64,000 bases of DNA. Source: Ruegeria atlantica. GTDB lineage: Bacteria > Pseudomonadota > Alphaproteobacteria > Rhodobacterales > Rhodobacteraceae. A program made the position numbers and the translations under genes. Shown here one piece after another: positions 2,997-12,731 of the stretch. How positions within the stretch are numbered: the first letter of the stretch is position 1; each line of letters starts with the position of its first letter. Under the pieces are notes generated by a model. That model saw nothing but the letters and a program-made list of their open reading frames with translations. It was not told the origin of the DNA and made no database searches. The stretch is taken from positions 186,001 to 250,000 of the forward strand of contig NZ_WQCF01000005.1 of NCBI RefSeq assembly GCF_013032455.1, given 5' to 3'.

Positions 2997-3814
2997 GGTT
3001 CCGTTGCAAAGATTTGGGTAAATCAAATAGTAATACGATCACTTCAGGTTCAGATTGCCAACTCGGCGAATTGACGAAACGGAAAGATTCCAGGCGTCAA
3101 TTTGCCATTGCGGATCATGTGTGCCACTTCGATTCCGTCGAGCGTTGCTGCCGCTGAAGCGAAGGCCTTGAACCCCAGCATTAGCCGAGAGCGCCTCTTA
3201 ATGAAACGGTGATCCTGCTCAACAATGATATTTAGGTATTTCCGCCTGACCATTTCAATCGAGATCAGGCACCCAAAGCCCTTCAGCATTTTATTGATCA
3301 CCTTGATACCAGCTGTGTTGGCACCGCTCTTGCCGATAACAATCTTCCGTAGCATACCATTGACCACAAGCATCCGAGCGAAGAAGTTCGTCGCGGCAGG
3401 CTTGTTTTGACGTGCTGATAGCATGAGATCAAGCGTCTTGCCGTATTTGTCGACGGCCCGATAGAGATATGCCCACGTACCCTTCACCTTGATGTAAGTC
3501 TCATCCATTCTCCAGGAGCGATCACATGGTTTTTTCCTGCGGCGCGCTACTTCAGCAATTGCGCCTGAGTATCGTGTCACCCAACGGTTCAATGTCGTAT
3601 GATCAACCGATACATCGCGTTCTGCCATGATTTCTTCCAAATCACGGTACGACATGCCGTATCGAACATAGAATAACACTGCGAAAAGGATAACGCCCTT
3701 CGGATACTGCGCGCCTTTGAAAGAAATCATGAGCTGGCTTTCGACCTAATTCTATCGACAGCCATTCACTCGCTAACTCCCTAAGCGTCAATCGCAAAAG
3801 TTTGCAACAGATCC
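2997..3814 (-). mobile_element. IS6-family insertion sequence (818 bp)
   Basis: A single DDE transposase gene fills the element. Its ends carry imperfect inverted repeats: GGTTCCGTTGCAAAGATTTG at 2997-3016, and on the other strand GGATCTGTTGCAAACTTTTG at 3814-3795 (16 of 20 identical), with the TGTTGCAAA core typical of IS6 ends. The total size fits the family (~0.8 kb). The 8-bp flanks (2989-2996 and 3815-3822) do not match, so there is no target-site duplication. This suggests that recombination or deletion followed insertion. Confidence 0.8.
3050..3730 (-). CDS. IS6-family transposase, probably inactive
   Basis: 226 aa, normal length for IS6 transposases. It has the N-terminal helix-turn-helix region (SYRDLEEIMAERDVSVDHTTLNRW), first catalytic Asp in WRMDETYIKVKG, and third acidic residue in VEQDHRFIKRR. 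The middle catalytic Asp, normally in the sequence IDKSGAN, is Gly here (VIGKSGAN; codon GGC near base 3335). All three acidic residues are needed for DDE chemistry, so the enzyme is predicted dead although the frame is intact. The C-terminus ends PFRQFAELAI. Confidence 0.85.
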   Translation of the reverse strand: MISFKGAQYPKGVILFAVLFYVRYGMSYRDLEEIMAERDVSVDHTTLNRWVTRYSGAIAEVARRRKKPCDRSWRMDETYIKVKGTWAYLYRAVDKYGKTLDLMLSARQNKPAATNFFARMLVVNGMLRKIVIGKSGANTAGIKVINKMLKGFGCLISIEMVRRKYLNIIVEQDHRFIKRRSRLMLGFKAFASAAATLDGIEVAHMIRNGKLTPGIFPFRQFAELAI

Positions 3815-4245
3815 CCATCGGCATCTGAGCCGGATTGACCAAAAGGAGTTCGCGACTGATAGAAAACATGGAACGGAACAATTACGTCCCCAGAAACTGG
3901 CGGCCCAGACGTTCACTCAAGACCTTGCGGCCAATGAGATCAAGTTGCGTGCGTAACCCCAACAAGGCACGGCCTGCGTTTCGATCAACAGGCCGGATGC
4001 ATATGGGCGACTGCCGAGAACATGCGAGAAAGCATTTGCGAACAGCAGCCGCTACATGCATTGGGGCCGTATTCGCTGAACCTTACAAACGACACAGCGT
4101 TTTTTATTGTTGCATTTGAGGCTAGCGCTGAGCCCTAACTATCTGTTTTCTACCGTGCACCTAAATTCCCGGTTCGCGCAAAAACCGACGCAGCTTTTCT
4201 GCTAAACTTCGTTGATCATGTAACCTCCTTTAGAAAAACAACAAA
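3815..4245. other. Intergenic stretch with a strong ribosome site but only a broken micro-ORF
   Basis: No convincing gene. On the reverse strand, just downstream of the MaoC gene, GGAGG at 4228-4224 stands 4 nt before an ATG at 4219. That frame stops after five codons (M-I-N-E-V). In another frame the sequence continues as LAEKLRRFLREPGI and stops at 4161, which looks like a natural protein tail. This may be a tiny frameshifted remnant of a former operon gene. The remainder up to the IS end shows nothing recognisable. Confidence 0.4.
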
Positions 4246-4689
4246 TTACCTGCCTTCGCAAATTGGGAGAGTGTACGTTACTGCGGTGCCTTCAACACAA
4301 ATGTCGCCCAGTGAATCCACTACACAGGTTTTCAACGTGCAAATCGGTTTGTCATCGCGTACTTCGATGACTTCGACCCGCGCCTCTATCGTTTCTCCCA
4401 CGCGCACAGCCTTTTTGAACCGCCAGTTTGTTTCAAGGAACACCGTACCTGGGCCGGGAAGATTTTCTGCGACAACTGCATTGAGCAGCCCGGTGGTCAC
4501 ACCGCCCTGAACGACCAATCCACCAAGAACGGTCTTTGCAGCTATTTCGCTGTCATAGTGGATTGGGTTCTTGTCGCCGGTCACCTTAGTAAACGCTTCG
4601 ACATCGCGCATAGAGGTTGTTCTTTCTCTGCTGGAACGTTGCCCCCGTTGGGGCTTACCATTCATGGTGCCTTTCCACCCGTTTTCCAT
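4246..4689 (-). CDS. MaoC-like dehydratase / hot-dog fold hydratase
   Basis: 147 aa. A polar N-terminal extension of ~25 residues precedes a MaoC hot-dog domain with the hydratase signature FTKVTGDKNPIHYD (Asp and His of the R-specific enoyl-CoA hydratase site), then GGLVVQGGVTTGLL and LETNWRFKKAVRVGETIEARVEV. Family members hydrate trans-2-enoyl-CoA to (R)-3-hydroxyacyl-CoA or act on related thioesters. The ATG is preceded by AAGGAG. It is the third gene of a leftward operon behind two flavoenzymes, 10 bp after the gene at 4700-5854. The context suggests an oxidative route for a hydrophobic or cyclic substrate, which is not identifiable. Confidence 0.85.
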   Translation of the reverse strand: MENGWKGTMNGKPQRGQRSSRERTTSMRDVEAFTKVTGDKNPIHYDSEIAAKTVLGGLVVQGGVTTGLLNAVVAENLPGPGTVFLETNWRFKKAVRVGETIEARVEVIEVRDDKPICTLKTCVVDSLGDICVEGTAVTYTLPICEGR

Positions 4690-4699
4690 GGTTTTCTCC

Positions 4700-5854
4700 T
4701 TAAGCTGCCTGAGCTGATGGTGTTAGAGAGCGTTGCACACAAGAAAACTCCGCTTTCATCTCGTCGTTCAAACGCATGTGCAGGCCCTTCAATTGCTCCA
4801 GCGTCCAGTCGAAGGACGCAATTTCCGAAGTAATCTGAAAAAGGTTAGCCGATAGTTGGTTGCGCGTGTGCTGGTAGTCGGACAGGTCGCCAAAACCTTT
4901 AGTCATGGCAGTTTCAACCAGGAAATGCGCATCCCGCAACGCATCGGTTATTCCGTGTGCGGTCAACGGGTCTTTGAAGTATCCAGCATCTCCGACCAGT
5001 GCCCAACCTGGGCCCGCGCAGTGCCGCATGTGTCCCGCCGCGCCCAGGTAGCGTTTGGGTTTCTCGACAAACGAACGGTGATCCAAATGTTCCGCCACTT
5101 CGGTGTCCCACCGCCGTAATTGGTCGCGAAGACCGGAGCAAACGTCAGAACCAAATCTGGTTTTGAAAGCTTGGGGAGGACAGGCAGCAAACAGGCAGTG
5201 CTGATCATTGGTTGTCGGGATCAATCCGGCGGCAGCATTCACGTCATAAAACCACCGGTAGCCGCAGTTGGGGATGCCATCCACATATGCATAGGCACAG
5301 GCTGAGTGGATATTCGAGCGGATGGTTTCCCTCGCCCTCACCAGTTTCGCGACGGTTGAGTTTCTGCCGTCGGCACCAACAATCAAGTCCGCATGGATCG
5401 GATGTCTGTTGCCGTCGCGGTCCATTAGAACGACACCGATCACACGATTATCAGGCCCCCGGAGAACGTCGCAGCAGACTGTGGCCGTCTTCAACTCCAC
5501 ACCCGCTTTTTGTGCCGCCTCGCCCAAAACCTTGTCCAGCAGCCAGCGACGGGGGGCGTAAAGCCCCTCGTATCCAGCATCCGATTTGAGCGAGATATCG
5601 AAGACGTCGTCGCCGTAGACGAATTGAGTTGCGTTGACCGCAGGGGTTGACACCTTGACTGCCTCCAACACACCCCAATGAGCAAGCAGATGGATCGCAG
5701 GACGCATCAATGCATGGGTTGAAAGCGTGTCTTGGATCTCGGTGTCCCGATCCACCAGCAGTACACGCGCTCCGCCCCGTGCCAGCAACATTGCAGTTGT
5801 GGCCCCTGCCACGCGGGCACCGACAACAATTGCATCATATTTCTGCGTTTGCAT
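4700..5854 (-). CDS. FAD-dependent monooxygenase / geranylgeranyl-reductase-type flavoprotein
   Basis: 384 aa. It has an N-terminal Rossmann dinucleotide site (IVVGARVAGATTAMLLARGG, with GxRVAG in place of the more usual GxGxxG) and the second FAD motif of the PHBH superfamily (ADLIVGADGRNSTVAKLV). The third motif, contacting the ribityl chain, is WALVGDAGYFKDPLTAHGITDALRDA. No signal peptide. Such enzymes hydroxylate or reduce small hydrophobic substrates using NAD(P)H. Strong GAGGAGG ribosome site. It sits 12 bp after the flavin monooxygenase gene and 10 bp before the MaoC gene, so the three are surely co-transcribed. The first glycine of the Rossmann motif is conserved, so FAD binding is expected. 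Confidence 0.85.
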   Translation of the reverse strand: MQTQKYDAIVVGARVAGATTAMLLARGGARVLLVDRDTEIQDTLSTHALMRPAIHLLAHWGVLEAVKVSTPAVNATQFVYGDDVFDISLKSDAGYEGLYAPRRWLLDKVLGEAAQKAGVELKTATVCCDVLRGPDNRVIGVVLMDRDGNRHPIHADLIVGADGRNSTVAKLVRARETIRSNIHSACAYAYVDGIPNCGYRWFYDVNAAAGLIPTTNDQHCLFAACPPQAFKTRFGSDVCSGLRDQLRRWDTEVAEHLDHRSFVEKPKRYLGAAGHMRHCAGPGWALVGDAGYFKDPLTAHGITDALRDAHFLVETAMTKGFGDLSDYQHTRNQLSANLFQITSEIASFDWTLEQLKGLHMRLNDEMKAEFSCVQRSLTPSAQAA

Positions 5855-5866
5855 GACATCCTCCTC

Positions 5867-7102
5867 TCATGCGGCCAAAGGTTGATTGAGTTGAATGCAA
5901 ATCTGTCGCGCCAGCGCCTTTGCGTCCCGTGTGGCGCCGTCGATATGTACGGAACGGCTGGTCCGCAGAAAGGGCAGCCCCATCACGTACAATCCGTGTT
6001 CGACGATGCCGCCTTGGTGTTGGATACGGCCCTTGTGATCAAAAACAGGAATCTGAACAAAGCGATGATCAGGGTTGAACCCGGTTGCCCAGATCACGGT
6101 GTCGATTTCGGTCAGATCGATGGCCAGCCTGGGATCAGCCGGCACAATGGTCGGTGCAAAACGCTGAGGTGGCGCGACCATATCGTCGAATCCCCGATCC
6201 GAAATCCAGGTATCAATCCTGTCTAAAAGGCGGTTCATTTTCAGTTCCGCGGAAGAGACGGAATTAAACAATCCACCGGAGAATTGCGCCTTGCTGTCTC
6301 GGATATCCATCATGCGCCCGACGAGTTCGACGCCCCGGGCCTGTAGGATATCCAGGTTCAGATCGTTGCGCTCCGGCGTTCCAATCAACGGCAGCGACGG
6401 TGTTCGCCGGACGCGTTCCAGATCGTCCACCTTGGTGAACGGCTCATCAAAAACACGAGCCAGATGCATCCACTGCAAAATATCCGCGTCGCGATAGGTG
6501 CGCGGTAAACGCCCGTGACTTCCGACGGCCAGAGTTACCTTGCGGCCGGACCACGCGAGTTCCTGCGCGATTTGAAGCCCAGATGCCGAGGCGCCAACCA
6601 CCAAGACGCTGCCTGAACGCAACTCGAGCGGACTGCGATAGGTGATCGGCGAAAACTGTTCGATACGATGGGGGAGGGCGCTGGCAAAGGCAGGAACCTT
6701 GGCGCGCGCGCAGGCGCCGGTGGCAATAACCACAGACCGGCACCGAATTGCGCCCCGGTTGGTTTCGGCAATGTATCCCTCACCAAGTCTCGACAGCGAG
6801 TTCACCGAAGTATTCGTAAAAAGCGGCGGCGCATGTCGTGTGACCCAATTGTCAAATTCGGACGCGAACCGTCGGGCTGTGGCGAATCCGTCGGGGTCCT
6901 CGGGTCCGTGCGTTTGACCGGCCAGTGTATTCATCCAGTTGGGGGTCAAAAGGCGCAGCGAGTCCCAGCGACGGCTGTGCCAGCTTTCACCGGCGCGCCC
7001 AGCATCCAGAACAAGGTGGTCAATCGAGCGTTTGCTGAGTTCAAAGCTCATGGCAAGGCCGCACTGGCCCGCCCCGATGATCAGGGTGGTTGTCGAATAC
7101 AT
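5867..7102 (-). CDS. Flavin-containing monooxygenase (FMO/NAD(P)-binding oxidoreductase)
   Basis: 411 aa from the ATG at 7102 (MYSTTTLIIGAGQCGLAMS), chosen because a TGAGG lies at the right spacing; the GTG 12 bp upstream overlaps that site. FAD site GAGQCG near residue 10; GESWHSRRWDSLRLLTPNW, typical of group B FMOs; second dinucleotide site VLVVGASASGLQIAQELA near residue 170 for NAD(P)H. WATGFNPDHRFV close to the C-terminus is the ATG motif of FMO/Baeyer-Villiger relatives. It heads the three-gene operon with the FAD enzyme and the MaoC hydratase. Substrate unknown; oxygenation of a carbonyl, S or N atom is the family chemistry. Confidence 0.85.
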   Translation of the reverse strand: MYSTTTLIIGAGQCGLAMSFELSKRSIDHLVLDAGRAGESWHSRRWDSLRLLTPNWMNTLAGQTHGPEDPDGFATARRFASEFDNWVTRHAPPLFTNTSVNSLSRLGEGYIAETNRGAIRCRSVVIATGACARAKVPAFASALPHRIEQFSPITYRSPLELRSGSVLVVGASASGLQIAQELAWSGRKVTLAVGSHGRLPRTYRDADILQWMHLARVFDEPFTKVDDLERVRRTPSLPLIGTPERNDLNLDILQARGVELVGRMMDIRDSKAQFSGGLFNSVSSAELKMNRLLDRIDTWISDRGFDDMVAPPQRFAPTIVPADPRLAIDLTEIDTVIWATGFNPDHRFVQIPVFDHKGRIQHQGGIVEHGLYVMGLPFLRTSRSVHIDGATRDAKALARQICIQLNQPLAA

Positions 7103-7163
7103 TTGGGGCCTCACAATGAAGAGGGTTATGCGAACCCCAGGGCACAGGGTTCGCCTGCGTGGT

Positions 7164-7391: not shown

Positions 7392-7958
7392 TCAGGTCAC
7401 AGAAACGCGCACGTTTCCTGGATTTGTGATGATGTCGAAAACGGCGGATCGCTTCTGGCTTTGAGCCACAACTGCAGCGATCTCATCCTTCGTTGCGTTT
7501 GCATCGATGTCGAAGGCCACGCGGATGCCCTTGAACCCGTTACGCACGTCAGGGTCTATGCCGAGAATGCCGTAAAGGCTCATGTCGCCTTCCACGTTCG
7601 CGACTACCGAGCGCAGCTGGATACCCCTGTTCTGGGCCACGGACGCCACACCCGCGCACAGGCAGCTTGCCAGGGCAGACAGGACGATTTCGACCGGGGT
7701 TGCGCCGTTGTCTTCGGCGGCAAAACAGGTCGGGTGGTCGGCGTCAAAGGTAAAGGTCTCGGCGTGTTCGTGTTCTTCACCAAGGCCAAAGAACCCTTTT
7801 ACGGTCGAGCGGCTATGGACCCCGTGCAGCCATTCGCATTCGGCACGCCATGTGAACTCTGCCGCTGCGGGCATCTCTGTCAGCGCTTCGCGTGCGCTCA
7901 TCAGTGCCTCGACGTTCACGCCGTTGTTGGCGGGGGGCATTTGTGTTGTCATGTTCAT
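7392..7958 (-). CDS. OsmC-family protein
   Basis: 188 aa from the ATG at 7958, with GGAG 8-9 nt upstream (an in-frame TTG 12 bp upstream overlaps that site). OsmC fold: ADHPTCFAAEDNGATPVEIVLSALASCLCAG contributes the active-site region with the peroxidatic Cys in LASCL; the second half contains the ISL-type strand GIRVAFDIDANATKDEI. The second cysteine of classical OsmC/Ohr, usually just before P-V in the C-terminal helix, is replaced (KRSAVFDIITNP), while two adjacent Cys (SCLCAG) are present. It may therefore not be a standard thiol peroxidase. Divergent from the regulator-hydrolase gene at 8141. Confidence 0.82.
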   Translation of the reverse strand: MNMTTQMPPANNGVNVEALMSAREALTEMPAAAEFTWRAECEWLHGVHSRSTVKGFFGLGEEHEHAETFTFDADHPTCFAAEDNGATPVEIVLSALASCLCAGVASVAQNRGIQLRSVVANVEGDMSLYGILGIDPDVRNGFKGIRVAFDIDANATKDEIAAVVAQSQKRSAVFDIITNPGNVRVSVT

Positions 7959-8040
7959 CTTGTTCTCCAATCTGGTTTGGGCCTCATCGCCCTGTAACCA
8001 CAGGCTTACAGACGTGCCGGTTGCAAAGCTTGGGGGGGAT

Positions 8041-8071
8041 CTTGGGATTTCTTGGGGATTTCTTGGAGAAA
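8041..8071. promoter_or_regulatory. Three tandem ~10-bp direct repeats between OsmC and the regulator-hydrolase gene
   Basis: CTTGGGATTT (8041-8050), CTTGGGGATTT (8051-8061) and CTTGGAGAAA (8062-8071) lie head to tail in the divergent region. Winged-helix proteins of the OmpR/PhoB class typically bind direct repeats with one helical turn of spacing. The neighbouring gene (8141) encodes exactly such a domain, so this is a candidate autoregulatory and OsmC-operon operator. Inferred from pattern and position only. Confidence 0.5.
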
Positions 8072-8140
8072 CCGTCGAGGTAAAGGAAATGCGGGGTTTG
8101 ACGGCCTGACAGACGCGGGTCTTCGCGGTACTGTGGCCCT

Positions 8141-9322
8141 ATGAAACATGTGTTTGACCACTTCATCGCAGACACAGCGACACGGGAATTGTCCGCCGAT
8201 GGCGAGGTAGTTCCGGTCGAGCCCAAGGTCTTTGACCTGCTGTCCTACCTGATTGCAAACAATGATCGGGTTGTTTCCAAAGACGAGTTGGTGGCCGAGA
8301 TTTGGGACGGTCGGATTATCTCTGACGCAGCGGTGTCGAGCGCGCTTTCTGCGGCGCGTCGCGCGCTAGGAGACGACGGGCAGGAACAAAAATTCCTGAA
8401 AACCGTACGCGGGCACGGGTTTCGATTTGTCGCTCCTGTCACGCAGGTTCCGGGTGAGGCACGAGAACGCGAGGCTATACCGCCGCAAGAAATCAGGATG
8501 TGCCGCAGCAGCGATGGTACGCGCATTGCCTATGCCGAAGCCGGAGAAGGTTCGACATTGGTCAAAGCGTCGAATTGGTTGACGCATCTTGAGCACGATT
8601 GGGACAGCCCTGTCTGGCGCCATTTCTATACAGCTCTGACGCAGAACCGTCGTCTTGTTCGCTACGATTCCCGTGGCAATGGCTTGTCTGATCGCGATGT
8701 GGTTGACCATTCCTTCGACCGGCAGGTGGAAGACCTTGAGGCGGTCGCCGAAGCGGCAGGCGGCGATCGTTTCTCACTGATCGGGCTATGTCAGGGGTGC
8801 ACATCTGCCGTAGCCTTTGCCGCCAAAAATCCGGACAAAGTGGATCGGCTGATCCTGATTGGCGGTTACGTCAAAGGTTGGCGCGCGCGTGGCGATACAG
8901 AAGGCTTTGTTCTGCGCAAGTCGGCACATGAGGCTCTGCCGCTATGGTGGGGCAAGGACACCACCGCCCTGAGGGACCTTTTCACGGGTATCTACATGCC
9001 CGACGCCCCGTGGGAGAGCCAACGGTGGTTTTCGGATCTTCAACGCAAAACCGCATCGGCGGAGAGTGCCGCCGCGATGATGTTTTCTGATTGTGACGAC
9101 GATATCTCAGGCTTACTGGAACGGGTTAAGGCGCCGACTTTGGTTATCCACGCAATGGGCGATCTTGCCGCGCCATATGAGCAGGGTCAGGAACTGGCGG
9201 CCGGCATAACGGGAGCGCGATTTGTGTCTCTGGACACTGCCAATCATATCCTTCCTGAAACGGACAGTGAATGGCCGCGTGCGGCACAGCTTATTGATGA
9301 CTTTCTGAGTAACCGAACCTGA
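8141..9322 (+). CDS. OmpR-type winged-helix / alpha-beta hydrolase fusion with Cys nucleophile
   Basis: 393 aa. Residues ~1-98 are a Trans_reg_C winged helix (VEPKVFDLLSYLIANNDRVV ... SALSAARRALGDDG ... TVRGHGFRFV). Residues ~115-390 are an alpha/beta hydrolase: oxyanion region, nucleophile elbow G-L-C-Q-G near residue 225 (Cys where Ser is usual), acid in VIHAMGDLAAPYEQG, His in TANHILPE. There is no receiver domain or membrane segment, so the hydrolase fold may act as ligand sensor or enzyme. The paralogue directly downstream keeps Ser at the elbow. Ligand binding or covalent thiol chemistry could drive DNA binding; the adjacent OsmC and flavoenzyme genes are plausible targets. Confidence 0.85.
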   Translation: MKHVFDHFIADTATRELSADGEVVPVEPKVFDLLSYLIANNDRVVSKDELVAEIWDGRIISDAAVSSALSAARRALGDDGQEQKFLKTVRGHGFRFVAPVTQVPGEAREREAIPPQEIRMCRSSDGTRIAYAEAGEGSTLVKASNWLTHLEHDWDSPVWRHFYTALTQNRRLVRYDSRGNGLSDRDVVDHSFDRQVEDLEAVAEAAGGDRFSLIGLCQGCTSAVAFAAKNPDKVDRLILIGGYVKGWRARGDTEGFVLRKSAHEALPLWWGKDTTALRDLFTGIYMPDAPWESQRWFSDLQRKTASAESAAAMMFSDCDDDISGLLERVKAPTLVIHAMGDLAAPYEQGQELAAGITGARFVSLDTANHILPETDSEWPRAAQLIDDFLSNRT

Positions 9323-9384
9323 GTGCCCCGATTCAAAATCTCGGACCAGATGACAAAAAAGACCGATGAAGCTAGGGTTTCTGC

Positions 9385-10575
9385 ATGAACTACAGCTTCG
9401 GAGAATTCACGCTTGATACCGCCGGGCTTGAATTGCGGGTCCGCGGCACGCCGGTATCCATAGAGCCCAAGGTTCTGGAAATCCTAATCTATCTTGTTGA
9501 AAACCGTGATCGTGTTGTTACGCGGGATGAGCTTGTTGCCCAAGTCTGGAACGGGCGCATTGTGTCGGATGCAGCGATATCCAGCGGTATCAGTTCTGCG
9601 CGTCGGGCCCTGGGAGACAATGGCAACGAGCAACGGTTTATTCGCACCTTGCACGGGCGCGGTTTTCGTTTTGCCTATAACGAAGTGTGCGAAACTACCG
9701 GTGAGACGATCACTCGGAACGAACAATCCGGCACGTGGACAAGTCAAAAAATTCAATTTTGTCACAGTTCCGACGGTACACGCATCGCGTATGCTACAGC
9801 GGGATCCGGTCCACCGCTGATTAAGGCAGCCAACTGGCTGAGTCACCTGGAATTTGATTGGGATAGCCCAATCTGGCGACACTTGTTCCAGTTGCTATCA
9901 CGCGGCAGTACATTTGTCAGATATGATGCGCGCGGCAATGGACTTTCTGATTGGAATGTAAGCGATCACTCGCTTGAGAGGCAATTGGAGGACTTCGAAG
10001 CCGTTGTCGATGCGGCAAAATTCGACAAGTTTTCGCTGATTGGCTTATCTCAGGGTTCCATTCGAAGCGTCGCCTATGCAGCACGATACCCTGATCGCGT
10101 GGATAAACTGATCCTGATTGGTGGATATACTCAAGGATGGAAACTACGCGACGATCCTGGCGGCCTCGCCTACAGGCATGCGGCACTTGAAATGATTAAA
10201 CACTGGTGGGACAGGGAAAATATTGCAATCCGTCAGATGTTTACGAACATGTATATACCTGACGCCTCTCCGGATCTGCAGCAATTGTTCTCGGAAATGC
10301 AGCGACGAATTATTTCCAAGGAAAACGCTGAAATCATGATGAAAGCGATGGCGGATGAAGATATCCGCCCACTTCTTCCGAAAGTTACGGCACCCACTCT
10401 GGTAATTCATGCCCGCAATGACGCAGCCGCCCCCTACAGTCAGGGTTTGGAGCTGGCTGCCGGTATTAGAGGGGCAGAATTTGTTACTTTGGAAACCGCG
10501 AACCATCACCTATTGGCCAGTGACCCCGTTTGGAAAAGATGTGAAACTCTAATCAGGGATTTCCTCGATGCATGA
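9385..10575 (+). CDS. OmpR-type winged-helix / alpha-beta hydrolase fusion (paralogue, Ser nucleophile)
   Basis: 396 aa, the same two-domain layout as the preceding gene and clearly its paralogue (shared PKV.E.L.YL...DRVV..DELV..W.GRI.SDAA.SS). Winged helix in residues ~1-98; hydrolase from ~118 with nucleophile elbow G-L-S-Q-G, acid in VIHARNDAAAPYSQG and His in TANHHLLA, so the Ser-Asp-His triad is complete. The gap to the first paralogue is 62 bp. A tandem duplication followed by divergence at the nucleophile suggests the two regulators read different ligands. Confidence 0.85.
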   Translation: MNYSFGEFTLDTAGLELRVRGTPVSIEPKVLEILIYLVENRDRVVTRDELVAQVWNGRIVSDAAISSGISSARRALGDNGNEQRFIRTLHGRGFRFAYNEVCETTGETITRNEQSGTWTSQKIQFCHSSDGTRIAYATAGSGPPLIKAANWLSHLEFDWDSPIWRHLFQLLSRGSTFVRYDARGNGLSDWNVSDHSLERQLEDFEAVVDAAKFDKFSLIGLSQGSIRSVAYAARYPDRVDKLILIGGYTQGWKLRDDPGGLAYRHAALEMIKHWWDRENIAIRQMFTNMYIPDASPDLQQLFSEMQRRIISKENAEIMMKAMADEDIRPLLPKVTAPTLVIHARNDAAAPYSQGLELAAGIRGAEFVTLETANHHLLASDPVWKRCETLIRDFLDA

Positions 10576-10818: not shown

Positions 10819-11433
10819 ATGGAACATTTAAACTGTCCGAATTGCGGGACCGAGAACACGATTTTGCTAAAGCGGGTCAGGGTCGCAACCTGCCCATCTT
10901 GCGGTACCACTTTGGTGCTCAATGACGCACAGGTTCGATCGGCAGGAGTACAAGGCGAGATGCACGAAGCGCCGTTGTTGTTTGGAATTGGCGATCACGT
11001 TCGATTGGGTCGCACATCCACGCTGATCCTCGGCCACGCGCGCTATTCCTACGGGCGCGGATTCTGGGATGAGTTCTGTGGGGTCGACGATGATGGGGCA
11101 TCGTGTTGGATTTCGGTCGACGAAGGGGACGTTGTTCGGCAATCAAGGCTGCAGGGTCAGGACGTGCCGAAATCCGAACCTCCCTTCAAACCGGGTGAAA
11201 CCCTGGATTTCGAGGCGACGACGTTCACGGTCACTGAAGTTGAAACCGCTGAATGCGTTGCTCTGCGCGGCCAGTTCGATGAGTTGCTACAGGTGGGTGA
11301 GAAACACAGCTTCGCCAATGCGTCGGCCGGGGATGACGCGTTGCTGTCTTGCGAGTATTGGGAGGCGAAAAGGATGTGGTTTTACGGTCGCTGGTACGAC
11401 CCGTTCGATGTAAGGGTTGATCGCCGGACATGA
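10819..11433 (+). CDS. DUF4178 protein with zinc ribbon
   Basis: 204 aa. It starts with a four-Cys zinc ribbon (CPNCGTEN ... CPSCGTTLV, residues 6-35), then a DUF4178 beta domain (FGIGDHVRLGRTSTLILGHARYSYG...WDEF...WISVDEGD) and a second similar beta segment. Cytosolic, no membrane segments. First gene of a tightly packed module (ATGA overlap with the next gene) that also holds a membrane DUF4178 protein, DUF350, spermidine synthase and AdoMet decarboxylase genes. DUF4178 proteins recur beside polyamine-synthase and DUF350 genes in many bacteria; their activity is not known. Confidence 0.82.
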   Translation: MEHLNCPNCGTENTILLKRVRVATCPSCGTTLVLNDAQVRSAGVQGEMHEAPLLFGIGDHVRLGRTSTLILGHARYSYGRGFWDEFCGVDDDGASCWISVDEGDVVRQSRLQGQDVPKSEPPFKPGETLDFEATTFTVTEVETAECVALRGQFDELLQVGEKHSFANASAGDDALLSCEYWEAKRMWFYGRWYDPFDVRVDRRT

Positions 11434-12731
11434 CCAGAAATCCCAAACTGTTGTCGGTCAATTGTACCAGTTGTGGCGCCGGTCTGGATGTGCTGGGCGG
11501 GGGCAGGGTGGTCGTGCAGATTTGCCCATATTGCGGCACCGAACTGGACGCGCAGGACAATTACAGGATTTTGCGCCAGTTCAATGATATGAAACGGCCA
11601 CAGACACCGTTTTCGATTGGCATGACCGGCACTCTGTTCGGGGTAGAATTCACCATCATCGGTCTGATCGAAAATTCCGAACGCTGGGGCGGGCGGCTCT
11701 ATACATGGGTTGATCATCAACTGTTTTCCCCAACCCACGGAAACGCCTGGCTGACGCTGGATGCCGGGCATCTGACCTTCACCCGGCGTTATCGCGGACC
11801 GGGCTGGATGTCAGAGCGATGGGTCGAGACGGCGGAAACACCACCAACCGTGAACACCGAGCACGGGCGGTTTCGGTACTATGAGACCACTACCAGTTCG
11901 ATCACCTATGTCGAAGGTGAATTCACCTGGCGCCCGAAGGTCGGTGAAAAGACGACGACGATTTCGGCAATGTCCGACACCGCGATGTTGGGCTTTTCGA
12001 CCACGGGGTCTGAACGTGAAACCTATCGCTCAGTCTATGTTCTCAAAGAAGAGGCGGAAGCCGCTTTTGGAACTGCGCTGGATCTTAGATCTTATCGTGT
12101 GCATCCGTTGCAGCCTTTTATCGCCGGGCCGAACTATCACTTTATACGCAATGCTGCTCTTGTGTTCACGGTGATCTGCCTGCTGATGGCGATGTTCTTC
12201 CATACGCGCACAGGGCAGGTGGTGCTGCGCGATTTTTTGATCGACCGAAAGCAGCTACCGGTCGAAATCACGATGCCCTTGGAGGCTGATAACCAACTCA
12301 CGCGGATTTCTTTGTCAGGGGATGTCAGGAACAGTTGGGCGTATCTGGACCTCGGATTGCTGGACCCGGAGGGAGAGCCCGTGTTCGAAGCCGGGCGTAC
12401 AATTGAGTATTATACGGGGCGGGATTCGGATGGGTCATGGAGTGAAGGTTCACAATTCGCCAGCGTGACATTTCGTCCCGAGCATACCGGTGATTACACA
12501 TTGGTGGTGGACGTACCCGATCAGGGGCTTTGGAACCATGTGACAGCAGATCGTGTGCCAAATCGACCGTTCTACAAGCTAAAGGTCAATGTCCGATCCG
12601 GTCTGCCCAGCGGTCTGTGGGCCTTTGCTCTGGCCGGGGTATTCGGGCTGTTGTTCCTGTTCCAGTTCGCGCGTAAACACCTGCACCAACGCGCAAGATG
12701 GTCCGGGACGGACTGGGTGGACGAGGACTGA
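11430..12731 (+). CDS. DUF4178 membrane protein
   Basis: 433 aa. N-terminal zinc ribbon (CTSCGAGLD ... CPYCGTEL), a DUF4178 domain (FSIGMTGTLFGVEFTIIGLIENS...WGGRLYTWVDHQLF) spanning ~residues 50-200, and a membrane segment near residue 245 (ALVFTVICLLMAMFF). Then comes an extracytoplasmic beta domain (~260-390) and a second membrane helix near 400 (LWAFALAGVFGLLFLFQ). The zinc-ribbon/DUF4178 part should be cytoplasmic and the beta domain periplasmic, linking envelope and cytosol. Start overlaps the previous stop by 4 bp. Confidence 0.8.
   Translation: MTRNPKLLSVNCTSCGAGLDVLGGGRVVVQICPYCGTELDAQDNYRILRQFNDMKRPQTPFSIGMTGTLFGVEFTIIGLIENSERWGGRLYTWVDHQLFSPTHGNAWLTLDAGHLTFTRRYRGPGWMSERWVETAETPPTVNTEHGRFRYYETTTSSITYVEGEFTWRPKVGEKTTTISAMSDTAMLGFSTTGSERETYRSVYVLKEEAEAAFGTALDLRSYRVHPLQPFIAGPNYHFIRNAALVFTVICLLMAMFFHTRTGQVVLRDFLIDRKQLPVEITMPLEADNQLTRISLSGDVRNSWAYLDLGLLDPEGEPVFEAGRTIEYYTGRDSDGSWSEGSQFASVTFRPEHTGDYTLVVDVPDQGLWNHVTADRVPNRPFYKLKVNVRSGLPSGLWAFALAGVFGLLFLFQFARKHLHQRARWSGTDWVDED

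Follow-up and report, generated by a model that had tools for sequence, protein, structure and literature searches.

Two adjacent genes of Ruegeria atlantica raise the question of whether an enzyme fold joined to a DNA-binding domain acts as a catalyst or as a receptor, and what a cysteine in place of its catalytic serine would mean. The genes lie in the 64,000-nucleotide stretch of contig NZ_WQCF01000005.1 analyzed here (hereafter the window). P0001 (8141–9322, + strand, 393 aa) consists of a winged helix (residues ~1–97) followed by an α/β hydrolase (residues ~116–390) with a Cys nucleophile, and its paralogue P0002 (9385–10575, + strand, 396 aa) combines the same two parts with a Ser nucleophile, Ser222 (10048–10050). 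A preliminary description of the locus had interpreted the pair as two paralogues joining an OmpR-type winged helix to an α/β hydrolase, and the coordinates, the Pfam matches and the 55% identity between the two proteins agree with it. Pfam Trans_reg_C was matched at 5.4e-16 in P0001 and 4.3e-16 in P0002 (58.9 and 59.2 bits, exceeding the PF00486 gathering score of 26.2), and Abhydrolase_1 at 4.2e-16 and 3.5e-18, respectively. Both proteins have the fold and the nucleophile–acid–His order of α/β hydrolases, with Cys as the nucleophile in P0001. Structure prediction, which the same description had proposed, likewise yielded a hydrolase fold for P0001: an AlphaFold2 model of medium confidence (pLDDT 67, four-row alignment) places Cys217 between strand 211–216 and helix 219–229, and the best Foldseek matches to this model are hydrolases, e.g., 3om8 and the enol-lactonase 2xua (E 2.3e-15). 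Judged by sequence, P0001 and P0002 are confirmed as fusions of an OmpR/CadC-type winged helix with an α/β hydrolase.

The nucleophile elbow reads GLCQG in P0001 (Cys217; codon TGT, 8789–8791) and GLSQG in P0002 (Ser222). Asp341 (9161–9163, + strand) and His369 (9245–9247, + strand), the triad acid and base of P0001, align with the Asp and His of P0002, so that the alignment bears out the earlier statement that both residues are kept in the two paralogues. A further feature, absent from that statement, is that Cys217 is followed by Cys220, forming a CXXC motif at the strand–helix turn (Cys217-Gln-Gly-Cys220, TGT CAG GGG TGC, 8789–8800, + strand). In a comparison of 168 hydrolase domains, a Cys three positions beyond a Ser nucleophile proved frequent (37 rows); cysteines at both positions occur only in the P0001 gene and its orthologue in genome G007. 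Between these two orthologues dN is 0.031 and dS 0.425, and both Cys codons are retained. The genomes searched gave no further P0001 orthologue whose elbow can be read, and the P0001 lineage is known from two genomes only. R. arenilitoris HKCCD6430 has a 94% orthologue of P0001, and its contig ends 63 residues into an adjoining P0002 orthologue (95%). In Ruegeria sp. 2205SS24-7 (locus L071), the first gene has decayed to a remnant (4063–4482) and the second (4594–5775) is intact and mosaic-looking, its first ~50 residues being close to P0002 and the rest about half identical.

Divergent from P0001 lies the operon that the preliminary description had called OsmC/flavoenzyme, and it does consist of osmC and two flavoenzyme genes, all on the − strand: an OsmC-like protein encoded by the first gene (7392–7970; PF02566, 2.1e-15), a flavin-dependent oxidoreductase resembling MSMEG_0569/ArsO (5867–7114; below the NCBIfam cut-offs) and an FAD-binding monooxygenase-like protein (4700–5854; PF01494). 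The same order of osmC, flavoprotein and FAD monooxygenase genes, divergent from the regulator, is found in the window, in L070 and L071, and in G592, which belongs to another family. On the other side of the pair, the downstream genes (window 10819–12731) include one for a DUF4178 protein and another whose 433-aa product has no Pfam match at 0.001. An IS6-family transposase adjoins the cluster (window 3050–3730), and R. arenilitoris has one of similar appearance, judged by eye, at the corresponding side (L070:1080–1787); the window also holds a cyclase–TPR gene (729–2579). Among the sampled genomes, the closest relative of the P0001/P0002 pair outside Ruegeria is the one in G592. The cluster may have moved between lineages. 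A plasmid origin was rejected, as none of 72,556 plasmid records matched the cluster closely, and a defence role was dropped after PADLOC gave only a weak partial TAP-like match (E 5e-5).

Winged helices of the PhoB type bind tandem direct repeats about 11 bp apart. The 170-base intergenic region between osmC and P0001 contains a predicted operator of this kind, identified by a repeat search and a trained model: four direct repeats, CTTGGGG/CTTGGGA/CTTGGGG/CTTGGAG (8029–8072, + strand), starting at 8029, 8041, 8051 and 8062 with steps of 12, 10 and 11, a spacing that is the same in L070 and L071. The lag-11 self-match of this region was equalled by 0.15% of 2000 shuffles. Base-level conservation between the intergenic regions of the window and G592 is poor. 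The periodicity extends to the wider family: a lag-11 self-match of at least 14/20 was found in 24 of 106 upstream regions of winged-helix fusions, compared with 1.3 per 106 in 1806 controls, and in the same 106 regions lag 22 occurred in 7 and other lags in 0–3. Upstream of SARP-type genes, 12-base repeats were seen in 5/19 at the same threshold of at least 14/20, a lag at which controls are elevated too (5.2 per 106).

We described the array by a model with an 11-bp period, CTTGRGAWWYC repeated three times. Alignment A4 comprises 42 hand-picked arrays that include the window's own; the 41 others were drawn from 59 with a preceding TTGAAG match of at least 5/6. At 12 bits or more, the model recognized 74/106 winged-helix fusion genes, an in-sample figure given that it was trained on the genes it scored; the corresponding rate was 0.72% among 1806 upstream controls and 0.28% among 1060 shuffles, and 32/106 fusion genes fell below 12 bits. 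The median array position is −86.5 from the start codon. Fairer tests are provided by cross-clade training and by six Ruegeria sites outside A4 (G045, G053, G006, G030, G052:C18 and G043). When the model was trained on one main clade and scored on the other, arrays were recovered in 10/20 and 44/85 genes versus 0.25% and 0.12% of shuffles, and the other-clade model scored the window array at 27.4 bits and the G592 array at 23.6 bits. The 54 Ruegeria genomes yielded 18 sites with E<1e-3, every one of them directly before a gene of the winged-helix/hydrolase family; in 17 cases both domains can be seen, and in the other (G045) the contig ends inside the gene, leaving only the first codons readable. 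The 12 weaker sites (E 0.007–0.06, in a scan up to 0.1) had no family gene in their loci. The genus listing contains 21 winged-helix fusions; 16 of them have a site, and the remaining five, P0002 among them, had none at E≤0.1. Since P0002 has no array of its own upstream, it is probably co-transcribed with P0001. A scan of the window genome returned a single strong site, the window array itself (E 4.2e-5, a member of the training set), and a second site at E 0.195, before a winged-helix TPR gene. With one strong genomic site, a genome-wide regulon was set aside in favor of a local switch.

Could the array belong to another regulator, the winged helix of these hydrolases serving dimerization or localization instead? 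We regard this as highly improbable. Its basis is that, among 12 winged-helix genes lacking a hydrolase match, two are also preceded by the array, L004 (a TPR protein in the window genome) and L245; L056 and L094 were excluded from the 12, as their hydrolase is present in another, overlapping frame. The winged helices of L004 and L245 are, however, close to that of the fusion family, arrays precede winged-helix fusions whatever the neighbors (37/52 codirectional and 35/50 divergent genes), and 11-base repeats were found before 0/23 cyclase fusions, which have no DNA-binding domain. Because the 2 of 12 hydrolase-less genes carry it, the array is suggested to go with the DNA-binding domain. DNA binding by the winged-helix fusions is thus strongly predicted: the DNA-binding part of the preliminary description holds with respect to sequence, to the operator-like array between osmC and P0001 and to the family-wide parallels, and binding itself keeps the standing of a prediction.

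The hydrolase domain is used well beyond the winged-helix fusions. Relatives with the same hydrolase and any output were detected in 30/54 genomes of the genus (1e-50), 86/394 of the family (1e-60), 29/385 of the class and 25/398 of the phylum (both 1e-45), each count including its own genome and the samples overlapping. The 168 distinct domains comprise 108 attached to a winged helix, 23 to a class III cyclase, 19 to a SARP-like N-terminus, 11 to a LuxR helix and 7 unclassified; the SARP label was given by resemblance, the unclassified L168 matching BTAD and the sampled SARP-labelled L067 showing no DNA-binding Pfam match. Since it is joined to winged-helix, SARP-like, LuxR and class III cyclase partners, the hydrolase appears to be a module coupled to differing outputs. 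One cyclase–hydrolase fusion, L003, is found elsewhere in the window genome, and another, L251 (G022), lies ~5 kb from an osmC–flavoprotein pair with a cyclase–TPR gene between them. Tandem arrangements recur: L097 (G331:C1:770310-775108) has four tandem winged-helix/hydrolase fusions with differing elbows, and further tandem pairs are present in L095 and L117. A search for a common ligand among neighboring genes was abandoned; for 105 genes upstream of the fusions, called crudely as longest open frames (alignment A5 for the scanned set), 58 of them scanned, the commonest family among the 25 of 48 listed was a glutamine amidotransferase domain, in 5/58 genes upstream of winged-helix fusions, a local neighbor unlike OsmC.

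Is the nucleophile of the fused hydrolase of any consequence? Ser, Asp and His are intact in 79 of the 108 winged-helix fusions. In 18/108 the nucleophile is replaced by Phe, Leu or Met, with Asp and/or His altered in all 18, and these proteins form two clades of 10 and 8 rows within a main clade of 88 rows. The Phe-type clade retains the operator array in 9/9 members scanned. The Leu-nucleophile clade (L109, L123, L114, L115, L128, L129, L136 and L139; Asp and/or His lost) has it in 0/7 scanned at 12 bits, one scoring 10.3, and may use another operator. The gibberellin receptor GID1 is a hydrolase-fold receptor that works by binding. The fused hydrolase could likewise be a pure binding pseudo-enzyme, for which it would hardly matter which residue takes the nucleophile position, the Cys being drift without consequence; the loss of the nucleophile with Asp and/or His in two clades, and the array kept in the Phe-type one, speak for this. 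The losses are nevertheless confined to the main clade that does not contain the window proteins; in the clade that does, 76/76 rows have Ser or Cys, and both Asp and His are kept in 71/76 (four with Glu for Asp, one with Asn for His). Together with the conservation of Cys described below, in LuxR-type genes and in both P0001 genes, this distribution makes drift in a pure receptor an unlikely account of P0001.

Cys occupies the nucleophile position in 2 winged-helix and 3 LuxR rows of the 168, and Asp and His are retained in 5/5 of these members of the first survey. In an 80-row tree the Cys rows require two changes, with a single origin in 0/200 bootstrap trees, a result that uses both bootstrap and branch support (4/168 hydrolase rows were dropped from the first tree and 4 long rows from the second); the P0001 Cys is placed among the Ser-type relatives P0002, G592 and L071. 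For the LuxR lineage, whose genus belongs to another class, 163 genomes of its family were searched, with matches in 13. Thirteen LuxR-type genes with a readable elbow were recovered in 11 genomes, 61–100% identical to the query and one (G1256) split across two frames, and all 13 have Cys (GLCQG, GVCQG or GICQG); the same search also gave one partial gene lacking the elbow and one SARP-type match with Ser. CXXC is missing in the LuxR-type Cys members. A sporadic Cys among paralogues, which the preliminary description had named as evidence against a role for it, is not the pattern found: on this phylogeny Cys is rare but not sporadic, with at least two origins, and it is retained wherever orthologues were found, two genomes in the case of the P0001 lineage. 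The Ser-to-Cys swap arose separately in LuxR-type regulators, which are likewise often found beside OsmC genes, a type linked to peroxide defence.

OsmC lies within 1.5 kb of 6/122 hydrolase-fusion genes, namely four in the clade of the window proteins (P0001, P0002, G592 and L071) and two LuxR-type Cys genes, a count that covers genes with at least 1.4 kb of flank and two OsmC query proteins, so that a distant OsmC could escape it. The other 116/122 have none within that distance, among them a third LuxR-type Cys gene, which is an additional copy within G942. OsmC also adjoins the P0001 orthologue of G007, a gene excluded from the 122 for its short flank. In the wider LuxR set, an OsmC match was present in the 1.5-kb flank of 8/13 Cys genes, one of them a 72-residue frame only, and 5/13 had none in their 1.5-kb flanks. 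The OsmC proteins of the two Cys lineages differ in subfamily and are only distantly alike (22.6 bits), for which reason the two linkages are probably independent. OsmC of the window type is found in 7/54 Ruegeria genomes (E≤1e-40). Two related operons add a further thiol-linked gene: a cysteine synthase–glutaredoxin fusion gene follows the osmC operon of G592 on the same strand, and the osmC–flavoprotein pair of G031 is likewise followed by one on the same strand; in G017, a nitronate monooxygenase gene and not the glutaredoxin gene comes after the flavoprotein gene. Ser-type relatives keep the osmC linkage as well (GLSQG in G592, GISQA in L071 of Ruegeria sp. 2205SS24-7), and since they share the same operon, Cys is not needed for it. 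The suggestion that a redox-sensitive Cys fits the OsmC/flavoenzyme operon is upheld in part: the CXXC, the OsmC genes beside members of both Cys lineages and the glutaredoxin genes of two related operons strengthen it, whereas a Cys-specific role is weakened by the Ser-type G592 and L071 beside the same operon and by the two clades without a nucleophile.

The retention of Asp and His in 5/5 Cys members means that ordinary Cys-His-Asp catalysis fits as well as a redox switch. Dienelactone hydrolase uses a Cys nucleophile, and P0001 might similarly be an active lactonase or thioesterase whose turnover sets the state of the regulator, Cys being a catalytic adaptation with no redox role. Of the named enzyme models, those of 3-oxoadipate enol-lactonases come nearest (TIGR02427, 4.8e-23; PDB 2xua and 3om8), and the 13/13 LuxR-type genes retain Cys without CXXC. 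However, the TIGR02427 (PcaD) scores, 81.8 and 83.2 bits for P0001 and P0002, are far from the cut-off of 255.85; there is no match to PF01738, the dienelactone hydrolase family, among the families listed, though Cys, Asp and His are present; and OsmC beside both Cys lineages, with the glutaredoxin fusion in two sister operons, suggests thiol chemistry. We consider purely catalytic use of the Cys possible but doubtful.

Based on these findings, we propose, as the reading we hold somewhat probable, that P0001/P0002 form a local cytosolic one-component regulator of the osmC/flavoenzyme operon, with the hydrolase pocket as sensor and, in P0001, a likely thiol-reactive signal. The winged helix of P0001/P0002 would occupy the four-unit array at 8029–8072 and control both the divergent osmC–flavoprotein–FAD monooxygenase operon and the transcription of its own genes. 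A small molecule bound in the pocket of the C-terminal PcaD/LipJ-like hydrolase would then alter oligomerization on DNA. For P0001, the signal could be an electrophile, a hydroperoxide or a thiol-reactive acyl or lactone compound that modifies Cys217, either as an adduct or through a C217–C220 disulfide; for P0002, with Ser222, the ligand would be a related one, either sensed or turned over. A thiol-reactive signal is our first choice because of the Cys and its CXXC, the OsmC genes found with both lineages that have Cys, and the glutaredoxin genes of two related operons. In this scheme, binding of the array by the pair, the sensor role of the hydrolase, a chemical modification of the Cys and the direction of regulation are all inferred. 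A broader and more tentative proposal, which we put forward at somewhat less than even confidence, is that the hydrolase active site was rebuilt into a thiol sensor at least twice, its Ser becoming Cys in lineages beside OsmC whose DNA-binding domains are unrelated; that in the Ruegeria lineage the change completed a CXXC at the elbow, which could control a four-site operator as a disulfide of the thioredoxin kind or by trapping electrophiles; and that the wider family would consist of hydrolase-as-receptor regulators with a shared operator code.

The N-terminal Trans_reg_C domain of P0001/P0002 is reminiscent of CadC/ToxR/HilA-type regulators, and CadC (PDB 5ju7) and HilA/EilA models match P0001, with scores below the respective NCBIfam cut-offs (CadC, 55.4 of 400 bits; HilA/EilA, 45 of 589); no equivalog cut-off was reached among the families listed (best 25 of 51 and 49). 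Unlike CadC and HilA, the sensor here is a soluble α/β hydrolase, reached through a linker that by eye has no membrane segment. LipJ (Rv1900c), a lipase/adenylate cyclase, carries a related hydrolase on a signaling output (NF058673, 1.8e-18), but the hydrolase comes first in the LipJ model (matched positions 20–264 of 449), the output of P0001/P0002 is DNA binding, and the match reaches 66.5 of 800 bits with no cyclase domain. The plant receptors D14/KAI2 and GID1 act by partner recruitment, and D14 forms covalent ligand states; they have in common with the proposed P0001 sensor the hydrolase fold as receptor, whereas P0001 has Cys and a DNA-binding domain of its own. Behavior of the OxyR/OhrR kind, with DNA binding altered by reversible oxidation of a Cys, is a candidate property of P0001, and the sequence features bearing on it are the CXXC and the OsmC linkage. 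In the accessible part of the study by Nadezhdin et al. (PMC3183031), RsbQ and PAS domains couple to phosphatase, kinase and diguanylate cyclase outputs, and DNA-binding domains are not among the outputs given there; the RsbQ/RsbP-PAS system thus likewise places an α/β hydrolase at the input of diverse outputs, but as a separate protein acting via a PAS domain, in contrast to the direct fusion to DNA-binding or cyclase modules seen here. Hydrolase domains joined to cyclases are mentioned in PMC4886424. The open-access literature yielded no described bacterial regulator that fuses a hydrolase directly to a DNA-binding domain, winged-helix/hydrolase proteins included; hydrolase receptors are already known from plants and from RsbQ signaling, and such a direct fusion appears undescribed. 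In the present set, a single sensor on a single DNA-binding scaffold occurs naturally with Ser, with Cys and without a nucleophile, and an operator is predicted for it, which opens to direct testing the question of when an enzyme turns into a receptor. Overall, these proteins resemble CadC-type regulators in their output and RsbQ, D14 and LipJ in their input.
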